Assembly: GCA_008501635.1 (NCBI GenBank)
Contig: QQUJ01000022.1
Coordinates: 1 to 64,000 of the forward strand
DNA from: Pseudomonadota bacterium
GTDB lineage: Bacteria; Pseudomonadota; Gammaproteobacteria; QQUJ01
Reading direction: 5' to 3'
Length of the DNA stretch: 64,000 bases
Made by a program: the position numbers and the translations under genes
Part shown: piece by piece, positions 6,285 through 51,551 of the stretch
Layout: the number at the start of each line of letters is the position of its first letter
How positions within the stretch are numbered: the first letter of the stretch is position 1
The notes under the pieces: model-generated
What the model was told of the DNA's origin: nothing
Databases searched by the model: none
The model's input: the letters and a program-made list of their open reading frames with translations, nothing else

Positions 6285-8249
6285 CTAGGCATGGACTTCC
6301 TTGAGCAGATCCATGATTTCCCGGCTCACCTTGTCCAGGTCCGCATCGATCTCCTCCAGCGGACGCGGTGGCACGTATTTATAGAAATGCCGGTTGAAGG
6401 GGATCTCGTAGCCGACGATGCCCACCTGGCCGTCCTTGTCGTCCTTCTTGGCCTCGTCGATCCAGGCATTGGGGACGTGGGGCAGCACCTCGCGTTTGAA
6501 ATACGCGTGGATATCCTCGCCCAGCGGGACGTTCTCATTGTCGCGCAGGTCGGGGTTGGGTTCGGCCTTACCTCTGGCCTTGCAGATCTCGGCCTGGTCG
6601 TCGTGCTCGCCCAGGTGCTTCTGCAGCAGCTTGAGGGCGGGCGCCGGTAAGGCTTCCCCGTTCATGTGCACCTTGAGCCACTTTTTGAAGGTGGTGCGTG
6701 ACAGCACCTTGTCTTCCTCGAAGCGTGGCAGGGCGTCGAGGATGGCCTGCTGCAGGTTTCCATCCCGCCTGGCCCAGGCTTTGTCGGCCTGCAGGGCGGC
6801 GAGGCGCTCGGGGTCTTTGGGGTGGAAGGCGAGTTGCAGAGGGCGTTCGACGGTGATGCGGCGATAACCAAAGGCGGTGGTCGGGAAGAGCTTGCAGGTG
6901 CCGCTCTCTTCGAAGTTGCCGTACAGACGCACGATGGCGTCGATGTTGTCTTCGGTGAGGTATTTGCGCTTGGAACCGAGCGACTTGCGCATCTTGTCAC
7001 CCAGATCGGTGGCGTTGATGAGCTGGACCTTGCCCTTGCGCTCGTCGGCCTTGCGGTTGGAGAGTATCCACACATAGGTGGCAATGCCGGTGTTGTAGAA
7101 CATGTCCGTGGGCAGGGCGACGATGGCCTCCAGCAGGTCGTTCTCCAGAATGTAGCGCCGGATCTCGGATTCGCCGGAACCGGCACCGCCGGTGAAAAGG
7201 GGCGAGCCGTTGAGGATGATGCCGATGCGGGAGCCGCCTTCCTTCGGGTCGCGCATCTTGCTCATCAGGTGCATGAGGAACAGCAGCGAGCCGTCGGACA
7301 CCCGCGGCAGGCCAGGGCCGAAGCGGCCGGCAAAGCCCTTGAGCTTGTGCTCGTCGGTGACCGTCTTCTGCACCTTCTTCCAGTCCACACCGAAGGGCGG
7401 GTTGGAGAGCATGAAGTCGAAGCGTTGGCCGGCGAGTTGGTCATCATCGAGGGTGTTGCCCTTTTTGATGTTCTGGATCTCGTGGCCCTTGATGAGCATG
7501 TCGCCCTTGCAGATGGCGTAGGACTCGGGGTTGAGTTCCTGGCCGAACACGGTGACGCGGGCCTGCTCGGAGATGGAATGGATGTACTCCTCACCCTCGG
7601 ACAGGAAGCCGCCGGTGCCGGCGGTGGGATCGTAGACGGTGACGATCTTGCCGGGGCCGATGCTGCCCTGCTGATCGGTGAACAGCAGGGCGGTGGTCAG
7701 GTGGACAATGTCCCGCGGGGTGAAGTGCTCACCGGCGGTCTCGTTGGAGGATTCCGCGAAGCGCCGGATCAGCTCCTCGAACACCAGTCCCATGTGGTGG
7801 TTGTTCAGGGCCTTGGGGCTGAGGTCCATGCCGGCGAACTTCTGCATCACCATGTAGAGCAGGTTCGCCTCGTCCAGCTTTTCCAGGAAGTCGTGGAAAC
7901 CGAAATGCTCGAAGATCTCCCGCGCATCCGGGCTGAAGCTGCGGATGTAGGTATCCAGGTTGTCGAGGACCTGGGTCTCGCCCAGGTTGGCCAGATCCAT
8001 GGGGGAAGTATTGTAGTAGGGCAGCTGAGCGGCCTTCTTCAGGAAGGCATCGAGTGGCAGGTCCGAGTCCTTACGCTTCTCGTATTCCGCCAGCACCGCA
8101 GCCTTGGTAGGCGCCAGCACGCACTCCAGGCGACGCAGCAGCGTGAACGGCAGAATGATGCGGCCGTATTGGGACTGTTTGAAGTCGCCCCTAAGCAGGT
8201 CCGCGACGGACCAGATGAAAGCCGCAGTGCCAGAGAAACTCTCGACCAT
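6285..8249 (-). CDS. hsdM: Type I restriction-modification methyltransferase subunit HsdM
   Basis: This 654-residue protein is an N6-adenine DNA methyltransferase of the type I class. The SAM-binding motif I is DPTAGTGGF at 207-215 and the catalytic motif IV is NPPF at 283-286; GEHFTPR at 173-179 is another HsdM hallmark. The N terminus ([18 protein letters not shown]) matches the helical HsdM N domain. It is the first gene of the operon hsdM-fic-hsdS-hsdR and acts with HsdS to protect host DNA. The start ATG at 8249 follows a run of seven G residues on the coding strand. The frame is intact and nothing is missing. Confidence 0.95.
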
Positions 8250-8474
8250 TACCCCCCCGATTTAATCGATTTATTGTTTATGAGCACAAGCTTAAATGTT
8301 TGAAAGAAAATATCCCCTCGGCACCAATACTACACAGTTTTCCATGCTCAGCGCTCCATGACACTAGTGACAAATGACTCGTCATTTGCATTGAAAAGCA
8401 ACCGGATGCAACCAATTCATGGGGTTCGCATCAGTGCCATTCGTGCCATTCGGGTCAAAGCCCTTTTCGTTTGA

Positions 8475-39917: not shown

Positions 39918-40712
39918 ATGAGCCACACTGCAGAGGACAAACCCCTCGTCATCGCCGGCAAGACCTACACCTCCCGGCTGCTGGTCGGCTCCGGCAAGTA
40001 CAAGGATCTCGAGGAGACCCGCCGCGCCACCGAAGCCAGCGGCGCCGAGATCATCACCGTCGCCATCCGCCGCACCAACATCGGTCAGGATCCCAACGAA
40101 CCCAACCTGCTCGACGTGGTGCCGCCGAGCAAGTACACCATCCTGCCCAACACCGCCGGCTGCTACACCGCCGAGGATGCGGTACGCACCTGCCGCCTGG
40201 CGCGCGAACTGCTCAACGGCCACAAGCTGGTGAAACTCGAGGTGCTGGGCGACCAGAAGACGCTGTTTCCCGACATCACCGCCACCCTGGAAGCGGCCGA
40301 GATCCTGGTCAAAGAGGATTTCGACGTCATGGTCTACACCAGCGACGACCCGCTCATCGCCAAGCGTCTCGAAGAGATCGGCTGTTGCGCGGTGATGCCG
40401 CTCGCCGCCCCCATCGGCTCGGGGCTCGGTATCCGCAATCCCTACAACATCCTCACCATCGTTGAAAACGCCAATGTACCGATCCTGGTGGACGCCGGTG
40501 TCGGCACCGCATCGGATGCGGCGATTGCCATGGAGTTGGGATGCGATGGGGTGTTGATGAATACGGCGATTGCCGGGGCGAAAAATCCGGTGTTGATGGC
40601 GTCGGCGATGAAGAAGGCGATCGAGGCGGGGCGCGAGGCGTTTCTTGCCGGGCGGATTCCACGTAAGCGGTTTGCGAGTGCGTCTTCGCCGATTGATGGG
40701 ACTTTCTTTTGA
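39918..40712 (+). CDS. thiG: Thiazole synthase ThiG
   Basis: The 264-residue protein is a normal-length ThiG. The catalytic lysine region is [10 protein letters not shown], followed by the phosphate-binding loops of the TIM barrel ([38 protein letters not shown]). It makes the thiazole phosphate part of thiamine with ThiS-thiocarboxylate. Codon choice changes abruptly from about 40500: C-ending codons give way to GCG, TTG, GTG and ATT. The last 60 bases are duplicated at 41040-41099, beyond a long structured repeat. Confidence 0.95.
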
Positions 40713-40716
40713 TTGG

Positions 40717-41034
40717 TTGTGTGGCTGTGCCACAGTGAATTAAATCGGGGAGTCCGCCCCCGAAGTCGGACTACTTTTCTTTGCTTGTCCAAAGAAAAGT
40801 AGCCAAAAGAAATGACACCCAACGGCCGCGCCACTCTGCGAGTGGTTCCCTGCGTTGCTCGATCTGTGAGGGGTTTCATCGACAGCACTTCCTGTGCTGA
40901 CGATGAAAGCTCGCCATCCCTGGCTCGCCCCTGACGGGCCTGATCCTCACAGCCCTCCGCTACTCGGCGCTGCCGACGGGGGGTAATTCAACACCAACAT
41001 GCGGCGCAATGAGATTGCGCCCTACGCGGGCTGG
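40717..41034 (+). repeat. Long multi-hairpin repeat R1 (full length)
   Basis: This ~320-base element starts with TGTGGCTGTGCCACA and ends at GGCGCAATGAGATTGCGCC. It contains at least five hairpins, including CTACTTTTCTTTG/CAAAGAAAAGTAG (40771-40802), CCACTC/GAGTGG (40831-40845) and a long one built from TTTCATCG and CAGCAC (about 40876-40910). Related copies are at 41618, 41780, 42120, 43095, 51023 and 51405. Reading frames inside it are by-products of the repeat. Confidence 0.85.
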
Positions 41035-41039
41035 CGGAG

Positions 41040-41099
41040 AGAATCCCGCGCAAGCGATTTGCGAGTACGTCTTCGCCAATTGATGGGACTTTCTTTTAG
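41040..41099 (+). pseudogene. Duplicated 3' end of thiG
   Basis: These 60 bases encode [19 protein letters not shown] followed by a stop, against [19 protein letters not shown] in thiG. They have no start and lie directly after repeat R1. DNA differences (AAGCGATTT against AAGCGGTTT, TAG against TGA) show that the duplication is not very recent. The element R1 is thus framed by two copies of the thiG tail. Confidence 0.85.
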
Positions 41100-41254
41100 G
41101 TTTTTGTGTGGCTGCGCCACACAAAACAACTAAACAGCCTGCAACGAATACCTTTCAAAAAACCAACTCAGAGAGGAACATACTCCAATATTGGCAGGGA
41201 CTGCTCTCTGACCCGGTTTTTCCATTAGAAGATACAGGTGGTGCCACTAAAGCA

Positions 41255-41563
41255 ATGATCAGGAGGTCCAAGACAGGATTGGTTTTCGCCGGGCTGTATG
41301 TCATCGCCGCAACGGCGATGTTCTTTGTTGCTTTGACCTGCAGCAGCGACTGGATGTGTGATCTGATTGCGCTGCCTGCATTCGTTCCGGCGGGATACCT
41401 TTACTGGCTCCCGTTTTCCGGCCAATTCAACTACATACCGGATCCCGTGCGGCGTTGGGAGTTCATCATCCCGGCACTGATCACCAATGCAGCGCTGTAC
41501 TATCTTGCCGGCTCTGCCGCGGAACTCCTTTTCAAACGTCTTTTCAATCGTTCCGCCAAATAA
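41255..41563 (+). CDS. Small membrane protein of unknown function
   Basis: From ATG 41255 the protein has 102 residues with three hydrophobic stretches (TGLVFAGLYVIAATAMFFVA, LIALPAFVPAGYLYWL, FIIPALITNAALYYLAGSAA). The frame is open upstream to 41108, but that part runs into the repeat and is probably not translated. An AGGTGG lies 14 bases before the start, so the start is not certain. I do not recognise the family. GC content is lower than that of the neighbouring genes, and it sits between two repeat copies. Confidence 0.55.
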   Translation: MIRRSKTGLVFAGLYVIAATAMFFVALTCSSDWMCDLIALPAFVPAGYLYWLPFSGQFNYIPDPVRRWEFIIPALITNAALYYLAGSAAELLFKRLFNRSAK

Positions 41564-41617
41564 TGGTCGCCGGCACCACACCTTCACTGGTTGGGTGAGA
41601 AGTTCAAACCCATCGGC

Positions 41618-41765
41618 AGCCCGCGTAGGGCGCACTTTCTTTCGTCCCTTTCTTTGGGCGAGCAAAGAAAGGGACCTGCGCTGCGGGCGCGGAACCCCGC
41701 TCTAAATAAACTGTGGCGCAGCCACACAAAACGACTAAACCACCTGCAGCGAATACCTTGCAAAA
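41618..41765 (-). repeat. Multi-hairpin repeat R2 (internally deleted)
   Basis: This is a shortened copy in the opposite orientation to R1. It keeps the outer parts (GCCCGCGTAGGGCGCA, GTGGCGCAGCCACACAAAA) and the hairpin GTCCCTTTCTTTG/CAAAGAAAGGGAC (41644-41675), but the middle is missing. It continues into a sequence shared with the desaturase gene tail. Confidence 0.75.
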
Positions 41766-41779
41766 AACCAAGTCAGCTC

Positions 41780-42098
41780 GTAGGGCGCAATAACCGAAGG
41801 GCATTGCGCCGCAGGTTGGTGTAGAAGTTATTCCCCGTCGGCAGCGCCGAGTAGCGCAGGGCTGTGAGGTCAAGGCCCGCAGGGGCGAGCCAGGAAAGGC
41901 GAAGCTTTCATCGCCAGCACAGGAAGTGCTGTCGATGAAACCCCTCCCAGACCGAGCAACGCAGGGAACCGATCAAAGATCGGCGCGGCCGTTGGGTGTC
42001 CTTTCTTTTCGTAACTTTTCTTTGGACAAGCAAAGAAAAGTTACCCGGCCGCGGGGACGGACTCCCCGCATTCAGTCACTGTGGCGCAGCCACACAAA
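41780..42098 (-). repeat. Multi-hairpin repeat R3 (full length)
   Basis: This is a full-length copy in reverse orientation relative to R1. Its first stem is GTAACTTTTCTTTG/CAAAGAAAAGTTAC (42011-42044) and the variable stem is CCGATC/GATCGG (41969-41983), where R1 has CCACTC/GAGTGG. The long hairpin with CAGCAC/GTGCTG is kept unchanged. Confidence 0.85.
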
Positions 42099-42119
42099 AA
42101 CCCATCAAATCGCCTGCAG

Positions 42120-42256
42120 TCCGCATAGGGCGCAATAACTGAAGGGCATTGCACCGCGCATGTCGGTGTTGAAGTCACCCCCTTCGGCAGCGCCAAGTAG
42201 CGCAGGGCTGTGAGGTTAAGGCCCAAAGGGGCAAGCCGGGAAGAGCGAGTCTCACC
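42120..42256 (-). repeat. Multi-hairpin repeat R4 (partial)
   Basis: This holds only the distal third of the element (GCATAGGGCGCAATAACTGA, then CAGCGCCAAGTAGCGCAGGG). It ends four bases before the mtfA stop codon. It follows R3 after about 20 bases, so R3 and R4 are a tandem pair. Confidence 0.75.
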
Positions 42257-42259
42257 ACC

Positions 42260-43021
42260 TCACCCCCACTCCCTCGGCTCCTGCCGATAAAACAGCGCCA
42301 GCTGCCCGTAGACCGCCGGATAGGCGGCGCGGAGAACCCTCGGTATCTCGAAAAACACCTCACTGGCCACGGCGAAAAACTCCTCCGGCGCCGTGGCGGC
42401 ATAGGGATCGAGTGTGGTGGGTTGCTGCGCCTCGACCCGCTCCACAAGATCTGCGTACGCCACGCTGAAAGCATCATGCCACACGGTATTGTTCATCCCC
42501 CGGTGCAACGGCGGATGACCGTTGGCGTCCCCGTTGAGCATGTCGAGCTTGTGGGCGATCTCGTGGATCACCAGGTTGTAGCCGTTGCCCTGACCGCTGG
42601 CGGCGACATCCGGCCACGACAACACGATGGGGCCCTGCTGCCACGATTCACCCTCCAGGGCACGGTGCTCACGGTGCATCACCCCTGCCTCGTCGATCCA
42701 TTCGTGATCCTGCAGAAACACTTCGGGATAGAGCACGATCTCGTGCCAGTTGTCGTACCAGTCGAGATCCAGGCCAAGAACGGGCAGGGCGGCGAGCGCG
42801 GTGACGACGACACGCTGATGCCGGTCGGGCTCCAGGCCGTCGGCGCCGTGTACGGGTTTGCCGTGGAGCAGTAGCGTGGCGGTGTCACGCAGGCGTTCCT
42901 GACCGGCGCGCGGCAACCTCCGCAGCACCGGCAATGCGGCGAGCGCACCTGCCCACGCAGAGCCAGGGATGGGATGGCGGGCGAGAACCCGGCGGCGGCG
43001 CCAGGCGCGGAAGCTCCACAT
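42260..43021 (-). CDS. mtfA: MtfA-type zinc metallopeptidase
   Basis: The 253-residue protein has the gluzincin motif HEIAH at 153-157 with the downstream glutamate region EEFFAVASEVFFE. This is the MtfA family: in enterobacteria MtfA binds the repressor Mlc and affects glucose transport; elsewhere the target is unknown. Length and order of motifs are normal (LHGKPVHGADGLEPDRHQRV early, YPEVFLQDHEWIDEAGVMHR in the middle). It is transcribed alone, bounded on both sides by structured repeats. Confidence 0.9.
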   Translation of the reverse strand: MWSFRAWRRRRVLARHPIPGSAWAGALAALPVLRRLPRAGQERLRDTATLLLHGKPVHGADGLEPDRHQRVVVTALAALPVLGLDLDWYDNWHEIVLYPEVFLQDHEWIDEAGVMHREHRALEGESWQQGPIVLSWPDVAASGQGNGYNLVIHEIAHKLDMLNGDANGHPPLHRGMNNTVWHDAFSVAYADLVERVEAQQPTTLDPYAATAPEEFFAVASEVFFEIPRVLRAAYPAVYGQLALFYRQEPREWG

Positions 43022-43094
43022 ACGGCAAGATTCGCGGCGGAAGAAGAGCCGTCATTATCCGGTTTCAGCAGGCGAAAATGTAGGGCCGGCGCAG

Positions 43095-43336
43095 CCCGCG
43101 TAGGGCGTAATAACCGAAGGGCATTGCGCCGCATGGCGGTGTTAGGTTATCCCCCGTCAGCAGCGCCGAGTAGCGCAGCTTGGCTTGGATCAGGCCCGCA
43201 GGGAACCACTCGCAGAGTGGCGCGGCCGTTGGGTGCCCTTTCTTTTCGCCTCTTTTCTTTGGGCATGCAAAGAAAAGAGGTCCGGCTGCGGGGACGGACT
43301 CCCCGCACCTAATCACCATGGCGCAGCCACACAAAA
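43095..43336 (-). repeat. Multi-hairpin repeat R5 (middle part lost)
   Basis: This copy has the stem CCTCTTTTCTTTG/CAAAGAAAAGAGG (43249-43280) and the variable stem CCACTC/GAGTGG (43206-43220). The conserved CAGCAC hairpin is missing, so the element is about 240 bases. It ends at the stop codon of the desaturase gene. Confidence 0.8.
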
Positions 43337-43339
43337 TAA

Positions 43340-44518
43340 CTAAACCGCCTGCAACGAATACCCCTTCAACGACCGCGAAAACCGCTCCAACGCTTCGATC
43401 CCCGAGCGCTCCGCATTCGCACACCACTCCTGCAACGCCTTGAGCAGCGACTCGCCCTCGCCCGCTTCACGCTGCCAGATGCCGGCCAGCTTGACGCGGA
43501 ACTCATGCACCACCCTTAAACGTTCGCTGAGCGACAGTGCCTGCTCCAGCTCCGCGGGCGGCTGATCGTTAAGACGCGCGCTGCTGGTTGTCAACCACTG
43601 CCGCGCCTGGCGTACCATTTTTCGCGCGGCACCCACCTGGCGTTTGAGTTCTTCGCGAAACACGGGGCGAATCACGCGCCGTGTGTAGTCGTGCATCACC
43701 CGAAAGCGGGTGCGCAGCAATGCGCTGGCGGCGGCGAGATCGAGGCGCTCCTTGCCGGCGATCACCACCGCGCGCGGTTCCACGTGACGCACGGTGGCAA
43801 GCCGCAGCGCGGCCAGGGCGCGGATGTATAACCAGCCGAGATCGAACTCCCAGGGGCGATGCGCGAGGCGCGCGGAAGTGGCGTAGGCATGATGGTTGTT
43901 GTGCAGCTCCTCGCCGCCGATCAGGAAACCCCAGGGGACGATGTTGCGCGAGGCGTCTTCGCAGTCGTGATTGCGGTAGCCGGACCAGTGCCCGATGCCG
44001 TTGATCACGCCGGCGGCGGTGACGGGTATCCAGGCCATCTGCACCGCCCACACCGTCAATCCCAGCACACCGAACAGCGCCAGATCGATCAACAGCATCA
44101 GCACGATGCCCAGCCAACCAAAGCGGCTGTAGAGATTGCGTTCGATCCAATCAGCGGGCGTGCCGCGCCCATAACGCTCCAGCGTCTCCTGGCAAAGGGT
44201 CTCCTTGCGGTAGAGCTCGGTGCCCTGCCAGAACACCTTGCGGATGCCGTAGATCTGCGGACTGTGCGGGTCTTCGGGACCATCGACCTTGGCGTGGTGT
44301 TTGCGGTGGATCGCCACCCATTCGCGGGTGATCATGCCGGTAGTGAGCCAGAGCCAGAAGCGGAAAAAATGGCTCACCGCAGGATGCAGATCGAGGGCGC
44401 GGTGCGACTGGTGACGGTGCAGAAAAATAGTGACGCTGGCGATGGTGACGTGGGTCAGGCCGAACGCGGCCGCCGCCACACCCAACCAGGAGAGGTTCAA
44501 CAGACCTTCGTGTAGCAT
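43340..44518 (-). CDS. Membrane fatty acid desaturase (acyl-CoA delta-9 type)
   Basis: From ATG 44518 (AGGAAA upstream) the protein has 392 residues. The three histidine boxes that bind the di-iron centre are HRHQSH at 34-39, HRKHH at 71-75 and HNNHH at 206-210. Membrane segments surround them. This is the acyl-CoA/acyl-lipid delta-9 desaturase class, which introduces a double bond in membrane fatty acids using oxygen. After the desaturase core a ~120-residue C-terminal helical tail follows, longer than in many relatives. Its last seven codons lie in a sequence repeated elsewhere. A Fur-like sequence lies 49 bases upstream of the start. Confidence 0.92.
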   Translation of the reverse strand: MLHEGLLNLSWLGVAAAAFGLTHVTIASVTIFLHRHQSHRALDLHPAVSHFFRFWLWLTTGMITREWVAIHRKHHAKVDGPEDPHSPQIYGIRKVFWQGTELYRKETLCQETLERYGRGTPADWIERNLYSRFGWLGIVLMLLIDLALFGVLGLTVWAVQMAWIPVTAAGVINGIGHWSGYRNHDCEDASRNIVPWGFLIGGEELHNNHHAYATSARLAHRPWEFDLGWLYIRALAALRLATVRHVEPRAVVIAGKERLDLAAASALLRTRFRVMHDYTRRVIRPVFREELKRQVGAARKMVRQARQWLTTSSARLNDQPPAELEQALSLSERLRVVHEFRVKLAGIWQREAGEGESLLKALQEWCANAERSGIEALERFSRSLKGYSLQAV

Positions 44519-51015: not shown

Positions 51016-51022
51016 GAAAACT

Positions 51023-51291
51023 TGTGCGGCTGCACCACGATCTTTTGAATGCGGGGATTCCGTCCCCGCGGCCAGGTAACTTTCTTGTGACGACAAGAAA
51101 GTTACCAAAGAAACGTTCCCAACGACCGCGCCGATCTTTGATCGGTTCCCTGCGTTGCTCGGTCTGTGAGGGGTTTCATCGACAGCACCTCCTGTGCTGA
51201 CGATGAAAGCTTCGCCTTCCCTGGCTCACCCCTGCGGGCCTTAGCCCCACAGCCCTGCGCTACTCGGCACTGCCGACGGGAAGATATCCAC
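51023..51291 (+). repeat. Multi-hairpin repeat R6
   Basis: This copy has the orientation of R1. The first stem is GGTAACTTTCTTGT/ACAAGAAAGTTACC (51075-51106), a form distinct from all others in which both sides have changed. The variable stem is CCGATC/GATCGG (51131-51145), and the long CAGCAC hairpin is kept. Confidence 0.85.
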
Positions 51292-51404
51292 CCCTCTCCC
51301 CTTCAGCGCAGCCGAGCACCGCAGCGAACCGCGGAATAGAGCGGGCGCTGCTGTTCGCAAAAGCGCACAGGGTGCCCGCTGAAAACGGGTTTCGATGCGG
51401 AGTG

Positions 51405-51551
51405 CCATTTCTTTTCGCCTTTTTTCTTTGGGCATGCAAAGACCAATTTGACAGGATCTAATTGGGAGAACCAGGGATGGTTCGAGTCAAAAGGGGTCCG
51501 GCTGCGGGGACGGAATCCCCGCACTAAATCAATCCGGCATAGCCGCACACC
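51405..51551 (-). repeat. Multi-hairpin repeat R7 (partial, with 47-bp insertion)
   Basis: This is the end of a copy in reverse orientation (TTTTCTTTGGGCATGCAAAG, later GTCCGGCTGCGGGGACGG). A 47-base unrelated stretch (51442-51488) splits the right arm of its main hairpin. The bases between R6 and R7 (51292-51404) have no gene. Confidence 0.7.

Follow-up and report, generated by a model that had tools for sequence, protein, structure and literature searches.

A family of non-coding repeats lies in the window, the 64,000-nucleotide stretch of DNA that was analyzed. The repeat has a conserved fold on an identifiable strand, is built of two arms, and occurs in multiple copies with a patchy distribution. 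One orthologous site in relatives is empty, and the arms carry strand-specific GGA hairpins whose presence is linked to that of csrA. The model that we favor, with a probability of about 0.68, is a dispersed, mobile, two-armed repeat in which each arm encodes an RNA that binds CsrA and contains a triplex pseudoknot. Within this model, action of the folding strand as RNA, CsrA binding, a regulatory effect, a role for the triplex and a mode of transposition are inferred. The first-pass annotation of this DNA had already proposed a non-coding element with a fold that is selected or needed for spread, and the direction was right: the fold is under selection, the element is non-coding and it behaves as mobile. 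That annotation missed the pseudoknot, the triplex, the two arms, the CsrA-like sites and the occurrence in several phyla.

Copies in the window

Self-BLAST of the window revealed that the seven regions proposed earlier, R1 to R7, are indeed related, with R1, R3 and R6 aligning over approximately 265 to 310 bp. The five main-stem variants named at that time were all found exactly as quoted, and so were the two forms of the second stem, CCACTC/GAGTGG (R1 and R5) and CCGATC/GATCGG (R3 and R6). The regions are not seven equal copies: R1, R3 and R6 are nearly full arms, whereas R2, R4 and R5 are partial and R7 is split. The hairpins of the described chain are real, but the element is naturally organized as two inverted arms rather than as a single copy. 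R1 and R6 lie on the minus strand, opposite to R2 to R5 and R7, and the fold strand is minus for the former and plus for the latter.

The R1 arm (40717-41025, minus) runs from a REP-like end (41025-41003) through a GGA part and the pseudoknot to a GC hairpin (40763-40747) and a terminal hairpin (40734-40720). Its pseudoknot core (40771-40818, minus), which scored 73.3 bits with the covariance model, is composed of S1 GTGTC, third strand TTTCTTTT, S2 CTACTTTTCTTTG/CAAAGAAAAGTAG and loop GGACAAG. GGA hairpin 1 (CAGCAC-AGGAA-GTGCTG; 40883-40899, minus) resembles a CsrA site. The centroid fold places GGA hairpin 2 (GCCA-GGGA-TGGC) at 40913-40924 (minus) and encloses both hairpins in a minus-strand stem, CTGTGAGG/CCTCACAG, formed by 40945-40952 with 40864-40871. 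The second stem, CCACTC/GAGTGG, is at 40831-40845. The R3 arm (41780-42099, plus) has the same type of REP-like end (41780-41810), followed by the 5' strand of the outer stem (41862-41869), GGA hairpin 2 (GCCAGGAAAGGC; 41889-41900, plus), GGA hairpin 1 (CAGCACAGGAAGTGCTG; 41915-41931, plus), the second stem (41969-41983), the pseudoknot core (41996-42045, plus; 77.1 bits), a GC hairpin and a terminal hairpin (42080-42099). In this core, S1 GTGTCC is matched by loop GGACA, and third strand TTTCTTTT accompanies stem GTAACTTTTCTTTG/CAAAGAAAAGTTAC. Compared with shuffled sequences, folding of the arm gave a z of -4.9 for R1 and -4.2 for R3. The R6 arm (51022-51280, fold strand minus) contains GGA hairpins at 51183-51199 and 51214-51225, a second stem at 51131-51145, and a core of the GGTAACTTTCTTGT type (51075-51120, minus) with third strand TTTCTTT and a weak S1 (ACG with CGT).

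R2 is a core alone (41630-41675, plus; 47.9 bits) with stem GTCCCTTTCTTTG, and R4 (42124-42250, plus) is the left half of an arm, without main stem or pseudoknot. R5 (43100-43335, plus) joins a REP-like end (43100-43130) to the right part of an arm and lacks the middle (GGA) part; its core (43233-43280, plus; 71.5 bits) has S1 TGCCC with loop GGGCA and stem CCTCTTTTCTTTG. In R7 (51402-51550, plus), an insert of approximately 50 bp within S2' (51443-51488) splits the core, and a GC hairpin follows. Inserts inside some core hairpins carry GGA-type hairpins themselves, such as GAACCAGGGATGGTTC in the R7 insert, and core-hairpin inserts were also seen at two loci elsewhere in the genome (L020 and L021; C10:221500 and C10:409650).

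Around R1 and R2 there are duplicates of the 3' end of thiG and of the 3' end of the desaturase gene convergent with it, adjoining a 25-bp palindrome, TTTTGTGTGGCTGCGCCACACAAAA; the positions concerned are 40656-40723, 41040-41121, 41139-41152, 41744-41757 and 43349-43362. The pattern looks as if repeated insertion or duplication of elements and neighboring genes had occurred there. Between arms R1 to R5 are a 253-amino-acid open reading frame (ORF) with the metallopeptidase motif HEIAHKLD (42260-43021, minus), presumably MtfA-like, and a 151-amino-acid membrane-like ORF (41108-41563, plus); both may have traveled together with the arms.

The core is an H-type pseudoknot with a third strand

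The well-supported fold is an H-type pseudoknot in which the main stem forms one of the helices. The order of the core on the fold strand is S1, TTTCTTTT, spacer, S2, loop and S2'. In almost every copy, the sequence 5' of TTTCTTT is the reverse complement of the first loop nucleotides. Loop/flank pairs seen across copies include GGGCA/TGCCC, GGCGA/TCGCC, GGCCA/TGGCC, GCGCG/CGCGC, GCACA/TGTGC and GCGGC/GCCGC. Over 112 copies, S1 and the loop formed 4.19 Watson-Crick pairs out of 5, compared with 2.40 after shuffling (maximum of 2.72 in 2000 shuffles). For 88 non-redundant copies the paired fraction was 88% versus 59% in shuffled controls (maximum, 67%), and pairing was unchanged when one copy per locus was used. 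In a 59-row alignment that leaves out several copies with a shifted or weak S1, all five S1 pairs vary on both sides, and the S1-loop covariation was 0.462, compared with 0.126 when shuffled (none of 500 shuffles reached the observed value) and at most 0.10 when slid.

The TTTCTTTT tract is a parallel Hoogsteen third strand, and its letters track the main stem. Its pyrimidines complement S2' in parallel orientation, in the manner of a Hoogsteen strand. Over eight triples the match was 98.9% in register versus 45 to 60% in other registers; a third-strand filter had a part in selecting the copies, and it is the register and shuffle controls and the zero matches in reversed DNA that carry weight. 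The third strand changes with the stem: TTTTCTTT accompanies the AAAAGAAA stem, TTCTCTTT the AAGAGAAA stem and TTTCTCTT the AAAGAGAA stem, and R2 in the window has TTTCTTTC, which matches the purine strand of its AAAGAAAG stem. The unselected figures for the S1-loop pairing (112 and 88 copies) and the triples (register test) are preferable to those from the 59-row alignment. The core thus combines covarying S1-loop pairing with a covarying, in-register parallel third strand.

Read on the fold strand, the outer stem has 63 G.T wobbles against 6 A.C mismatches. This asymmetry identifies the folding strand and indicates that selection acts on a single strand and not on the duplex; the wobble tolerance fits single-stranded DNA (ssDNA) and RNA equally. 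The earlier proposal that the fold is selected was right in direction. By themselves, the five main-stem variants on which it relied are weak evidence, because stem differences within one genome are mostly subfamily differences between arms; selection is instead argued for by the loop-flank covariation, the parallel third strand, the wobble asymmetry and the strand-specific GGA hairpins.

The first-pass annotation had named template-switch correction as a process that could account for the stem changes without selection. A neutral palindrome, in which template switching and gene conversion maintain arm complementarity, would be in keeping with stem changes that are subfamily-wide within one genome and with copies that recombine, as seen in the gene ends duplicated around R1 to R3. 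However, palindrome repair yields antiparallel copies only, so template switching is ruled out for the TTTCTTTT relation, and the parallel, covarying TTTCTTTT/AAAGAAAA relation could not have arisen in this way. Neither the loop-flank pairing across species nor the 63:6 wobble bias on one strand is explained. Template switching alone is therefore excluded for the core, and a neutral origin of the repeat as a whole is hardly credible, although some outer hairpins could still be explained so.

A further rival reading takes the repeat as an H-DNA-like intrastrand DNA triplex that blocks replication or recombination or acts as an instability hotspot, a role that Holder et al. 2015 (PMC4666352) put forward for triplex motifs of bacteria. 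A polypyrimidine mirror repeat with a palindrome suits such a triplex, and local rearrangements are present in the window. This reading leaves the loop-flank pseudoknot unexplained, as it does the GGA hairpins and the csrA link, and we consider it highly improbable.

Distribution

The genome from which the window derives (3.93 Mb), the sole member of its family among the genomes compared, carries the repeat on five contigs by BLAST, the four beyond the window being C10, C17, C18 and C23. The covariance-model search suggested by the first-pass annotation found 15 convincing copies of a 53-nt core in this genome, a count that omits three further rows representing the opposite strand of the same hairpins. 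Extended to related genomes, the search detected the core in 48 of 398 sampled Pseudomonadota genomes (E value of 1e-5). When GTDB genomes were searched with the hairpin pattern alone, omitting the flank, more than 100 stretches were returned, in Xanthomonadales, Burkholderiales, Methylococcales, relatives of Pseudomonas, Selenomonadaceae and Bacteroidota. The pattern was present in 43 of 369 Gammaproteobacteria genomes, with up to 23 copies each; read backwards against the same 369, it gave none among the matches listed. Our element finder returned 264 matches and, on reversed sequence, none. That the core unit recurs in many bacterial groups points to a mobile riboregulator of a kind that may be widespread and is for the most part undescribed. 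A viral origin was rejected, with five matches in IMG/VR, and a plasmid search gave two weak matches.

Two-armed architecture and mobility

Where neighboring cores were less than 800 bp apart, 49 of 61 cases were divergent and 3 convergent; the 8 same-strand cases are two loci of the window's genome that were fetched repeatedly. A complete element comprises two outward-pointing arms 280 to 650 bp apart. The arms of one element mostly differ in S2 or the loop, being identical in both in 3 of 37 elements, which would favor local folding over arm-to-arm pairing.

A search for empty sites, also suggested earlier, showed that the element of one genome (G131) is absent from the orthologous site in three congeners (genus g132), where the flanks are collinear; the flanks are approximately 70% identical and the junction is not base exact. 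Copies in G131 have common, defined ends approximately 80 nt outside the core. The multicopy, patchy occurrence with defined ends and an empty site in relatives is that of a MITE-like element. No clear target-site duplication was seen by eye among the copies inspected, and searches identified no mobilizing enzyme or parent transposase for the element.

Several longer two-armed elements (L183, L113, L029, L037 and L146) hold genes. Their inter-arm ORFs, which include a DpnII-MboI-type nuclease, a RAYT and unknown ORFs, belong to no common family and were rejected as the autonomous mobilizing enzyme; they look like cargo or later insertions. In the window's genome, a two-armed element holds a 94-amino-acid ORF (C10:71340-71624) with a GIY-YIG-like look and no Pfam match.

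The main rival explanation, which concerns the core, is that the fold acts as ssDNA. The pseudoknot/triplex hairpins at the ends would be signals for an ssDNA transposase of the REP/RAYT or IS200/IS605 type, and the GGA hairpins would be incidental or separate. The inverted arms near both ends of a mobile repeat are consistent with this, as is the retention of the core where csrA is absent. The window's genome has Y1 transposases, and some arms end in a GTAG-hairpin REP: R1, R3 and R5 have a GTAG-type tetranucleotide followed by a hairpin at their inner ends, but most other copies lack it. Of the Y1 transposases in that genome, only one is obviously flanked by REPs, and these differ in sequence from the element's; Y1/RAYT was therefore rejected as the mobilizer. 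The RAYT inside L113 carries its own REPs, looks like a nested REP-RAYT and was likewise rejected. The GGA hairpins, moreover, are strongly strand specific and accompany an RNA-binding protein. With respect to REP/BIME/REPIN sequences and their RAYTs, the element is similar in being intergenic and palindromic with inverted pairs, some arms having the GTAG-hairpin REP, but it is approximately 10 times longer, has another core and has no matching RAYT in its own genome. We regard an ssDNA signal as unlikely, though the foremost competitor of the RNA reading.

The RAYT-type REP, GTAGGGCGCAATAACCGAAGGGCATTGCGCC, is at the inner end of some arms (41780-41810, 43100-43130 and 41003-41025 in the window; loci L026 to L028, L031 and L032 elsewhere) and also occurs alone in several other families, with 14 to 15 copies in G018 and G055. 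The Y1/RAYT-like gene of the window's genome (L013; contig C25, approximately 7940-8296) lies between its own REPs, GTAGGTCGGGTTAGCGCAGCGTAACCCGAC.

GGA hairpins and csrA

In fold-strand hairpin loops lying between the element center and the core, there were 60 occurrences of GGA and 3 of TCC (62 versus 3 counting the closing pair). GGA-loop density was 3.19 per kb, approximately 12-fold above the background of 0.27 per kb in DNA more than 1 kb away, and the hairpins lie mostly 53 to 135 nt 5' of the core. Their consensus is A-N-GGA-(T/C)-G, which we take to be the CsrA/RsmA site; this assignment is also found in PMC4333381. The arms thus share with CsrA-binding RNAs an enriched, strand-specific A(N)GGA in short hairpin loops.

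The window's genome carries csrA and has GGA hairpins in 9 of its 15 arms. By group, arms with GGA hairpins numbered 6/6 in Methylomonas, 17/22 in Xanthomonadales and 5/6 in Selenomonadaceae, compared with 4/40 in Burkholderiales and 0/5 in Bacteroidota. csrA status was assigned by searching for PF02599 in the same genomes that hold the loci. GGA hairpins were present in 32 of 40 arms from csrA-positive genomes versus 3 of 37 from csrA-negative genomes under the strict rule (P = 8e-11), or 5 of 37 if any GGA is counted (P = 3e-9); by genome, the figures were 21/24 versus 3/20 (4/20 for any GGA). Because csrA absence is largely found in Burkholderiales, which are related to each other, these counts represent few effective phylogenetic contrasts. 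A second set (26 genomes with usable arms) showed the same trend, not significant under a lenient GGA rule (16/24 versus 6/16; P = 0.11); the difference was clear only with long loops excluded, a rule refined after that set had been viewed. Core occurrence was independent of csrA. The consensus and the association with csrA suggest that the GGA hairpins bind CsrA.

Proposed function

Most likely, each arm acts as a CsrA-binding RNA with a stable triplex pseudoknot at its end. Read outward, it would present a GGA-loop hairpin pair to CsrA/RsmA, then the H-type pseudoknot, then one or two GC hairpins near the end of the element. The first loop of the pseudoknot would occupy the main-stem major groove and form a U.A-U/C+.G-C triple helix there. 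As the arms point outward on opposite strands, transcripts crossing the element either way would carry one sense arm. The GGA hairpins may recruit CsrA to a local 3'-untranslated-region (3'-UTR) site or sequester it in the manner of CsrB/RsmZ, so that the arm RNA could serve as a sponge, as a 3'-UTR site of neighboring genes or in the element's own control. The triplex pseudoknot might make the RNA more resistant to 3' decay or help the element itself to spread. A scan for sigma-70-like promoters found none in 40600-43500, and read-through from neighboring genes is therefore likelier than an own promoter.

More tentatively, the repeats may form one class of mobile elements over several phyla, in which both ends are outward riboregulators (a CsrA-binding GGA pair plus a triplex pseudoknot) that exploit or tune host CsrA, the csrA-negative hosts retaining the pseudoknot and losing the GGA hairpins. 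The findings also point to mobile repeats as a possible means of seeding CsrA-binding RNA throughout genomes, and csrA-positive and csrA-negative hosts offer a direct test of the effect of such repeats.

Relation to known RNA families

Part of this architecture is already known, namely, the GGA pair as TwoAYGGAY, a piece 3' of the core as Bp1_684 and intrastrand triplexes as a class. The triplex pseudoknot, the two-armed mobile architecture and the csrA link were not found in Rfam or in the literature, searched by sequence and by concept. An Rfam scan of the window returned two tRNAs and nothing else, with no match in the repeat cluster even at an E value of 5.

TwoAYGGAY (RF01731), an RNA for which CsrA binding has been predicted (Gardner and Eldai, PMC4333381), has two GGA-loop hairpins enclosed by a stem, and R1 shows this arrangement with CTGTGAGG/CCTCACAG. 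RF01731 matches occurred in 12 of 36 core-bearing genomes, with 57 in one, and in many cases lay immediately 5' of a core and on its strand. The Rfam gathering threshold was reached in 7 of 36 other core-bearing genomes. The copy on C17 in the window's genome scored 34.3 bits, below the threshold of 43, and the window copies gave no match to RF01731 at an E value of 5. The R1 loops are AGGAA and GGGA rather than AYGGAY, and TwoAYGGAY is not described as carrying a pseudoknot with a triplex on its 3' side, as having two inverted arms or as being mobile and dispersed. Our results bring this orphan Rfam family under one architecture with anonymous repeats found between genes in Gamma- and Betaproteobacteria.

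CsrB, CsrC and RsmX/Y/Z, which are dedicated small RNA genes, also repeat A(N)GGA loops on short hairpins. Unlike these sponges, the element occurs as many dispersed copies, each with two GGA hairpins plus the triplex pseudoknot. In telomerase RNA and the SAM-II and preQ1-II riboswitches, loop 1 pyrimidines occupy the stem 2 major groove, and the present core resembles these H-type triplex pseudoknots in that respect. It differs in having seven to eight nearly unbroken triples, the likeness does not imply common origin, and we know of no ligand for it. The SAM-V riboswitch is another such H-type triplex pseudoknot (PMC6061858). The element thus supplies a natural, repeated and easily mutated triplex pseudoknot with seven to eight triples. 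The motifs of Holder et al. 2015 (PMC4666352) are similar in combining a hairpin and a third strand on one strand and in being abundant in bacteria; the TM_ECO motif studied there is, however, a GC-rich purine motif, and the text never uses the word pseudoknot.

Bp1_684 (RF02421), a Burkholderia small RNA among the candidates validated by reverse transcription-PCR (PMC3521395), gave near-threshold matches 3' of the core in both arms of a Paraburkholderia tagetis element, on the folding strand (E values of 1.6e-5 and 3e-5). The match begins inside S2' and extends 3', leaving S1, the third strand and the loop uncovered. Elements of Burkholderiales (L073, L083, L086 and others) have a GCCCCGCACAGGGGC hairpin directly 3' of the core, and at L073 it is the stretch with this hairpin that Bp1_684 matches.
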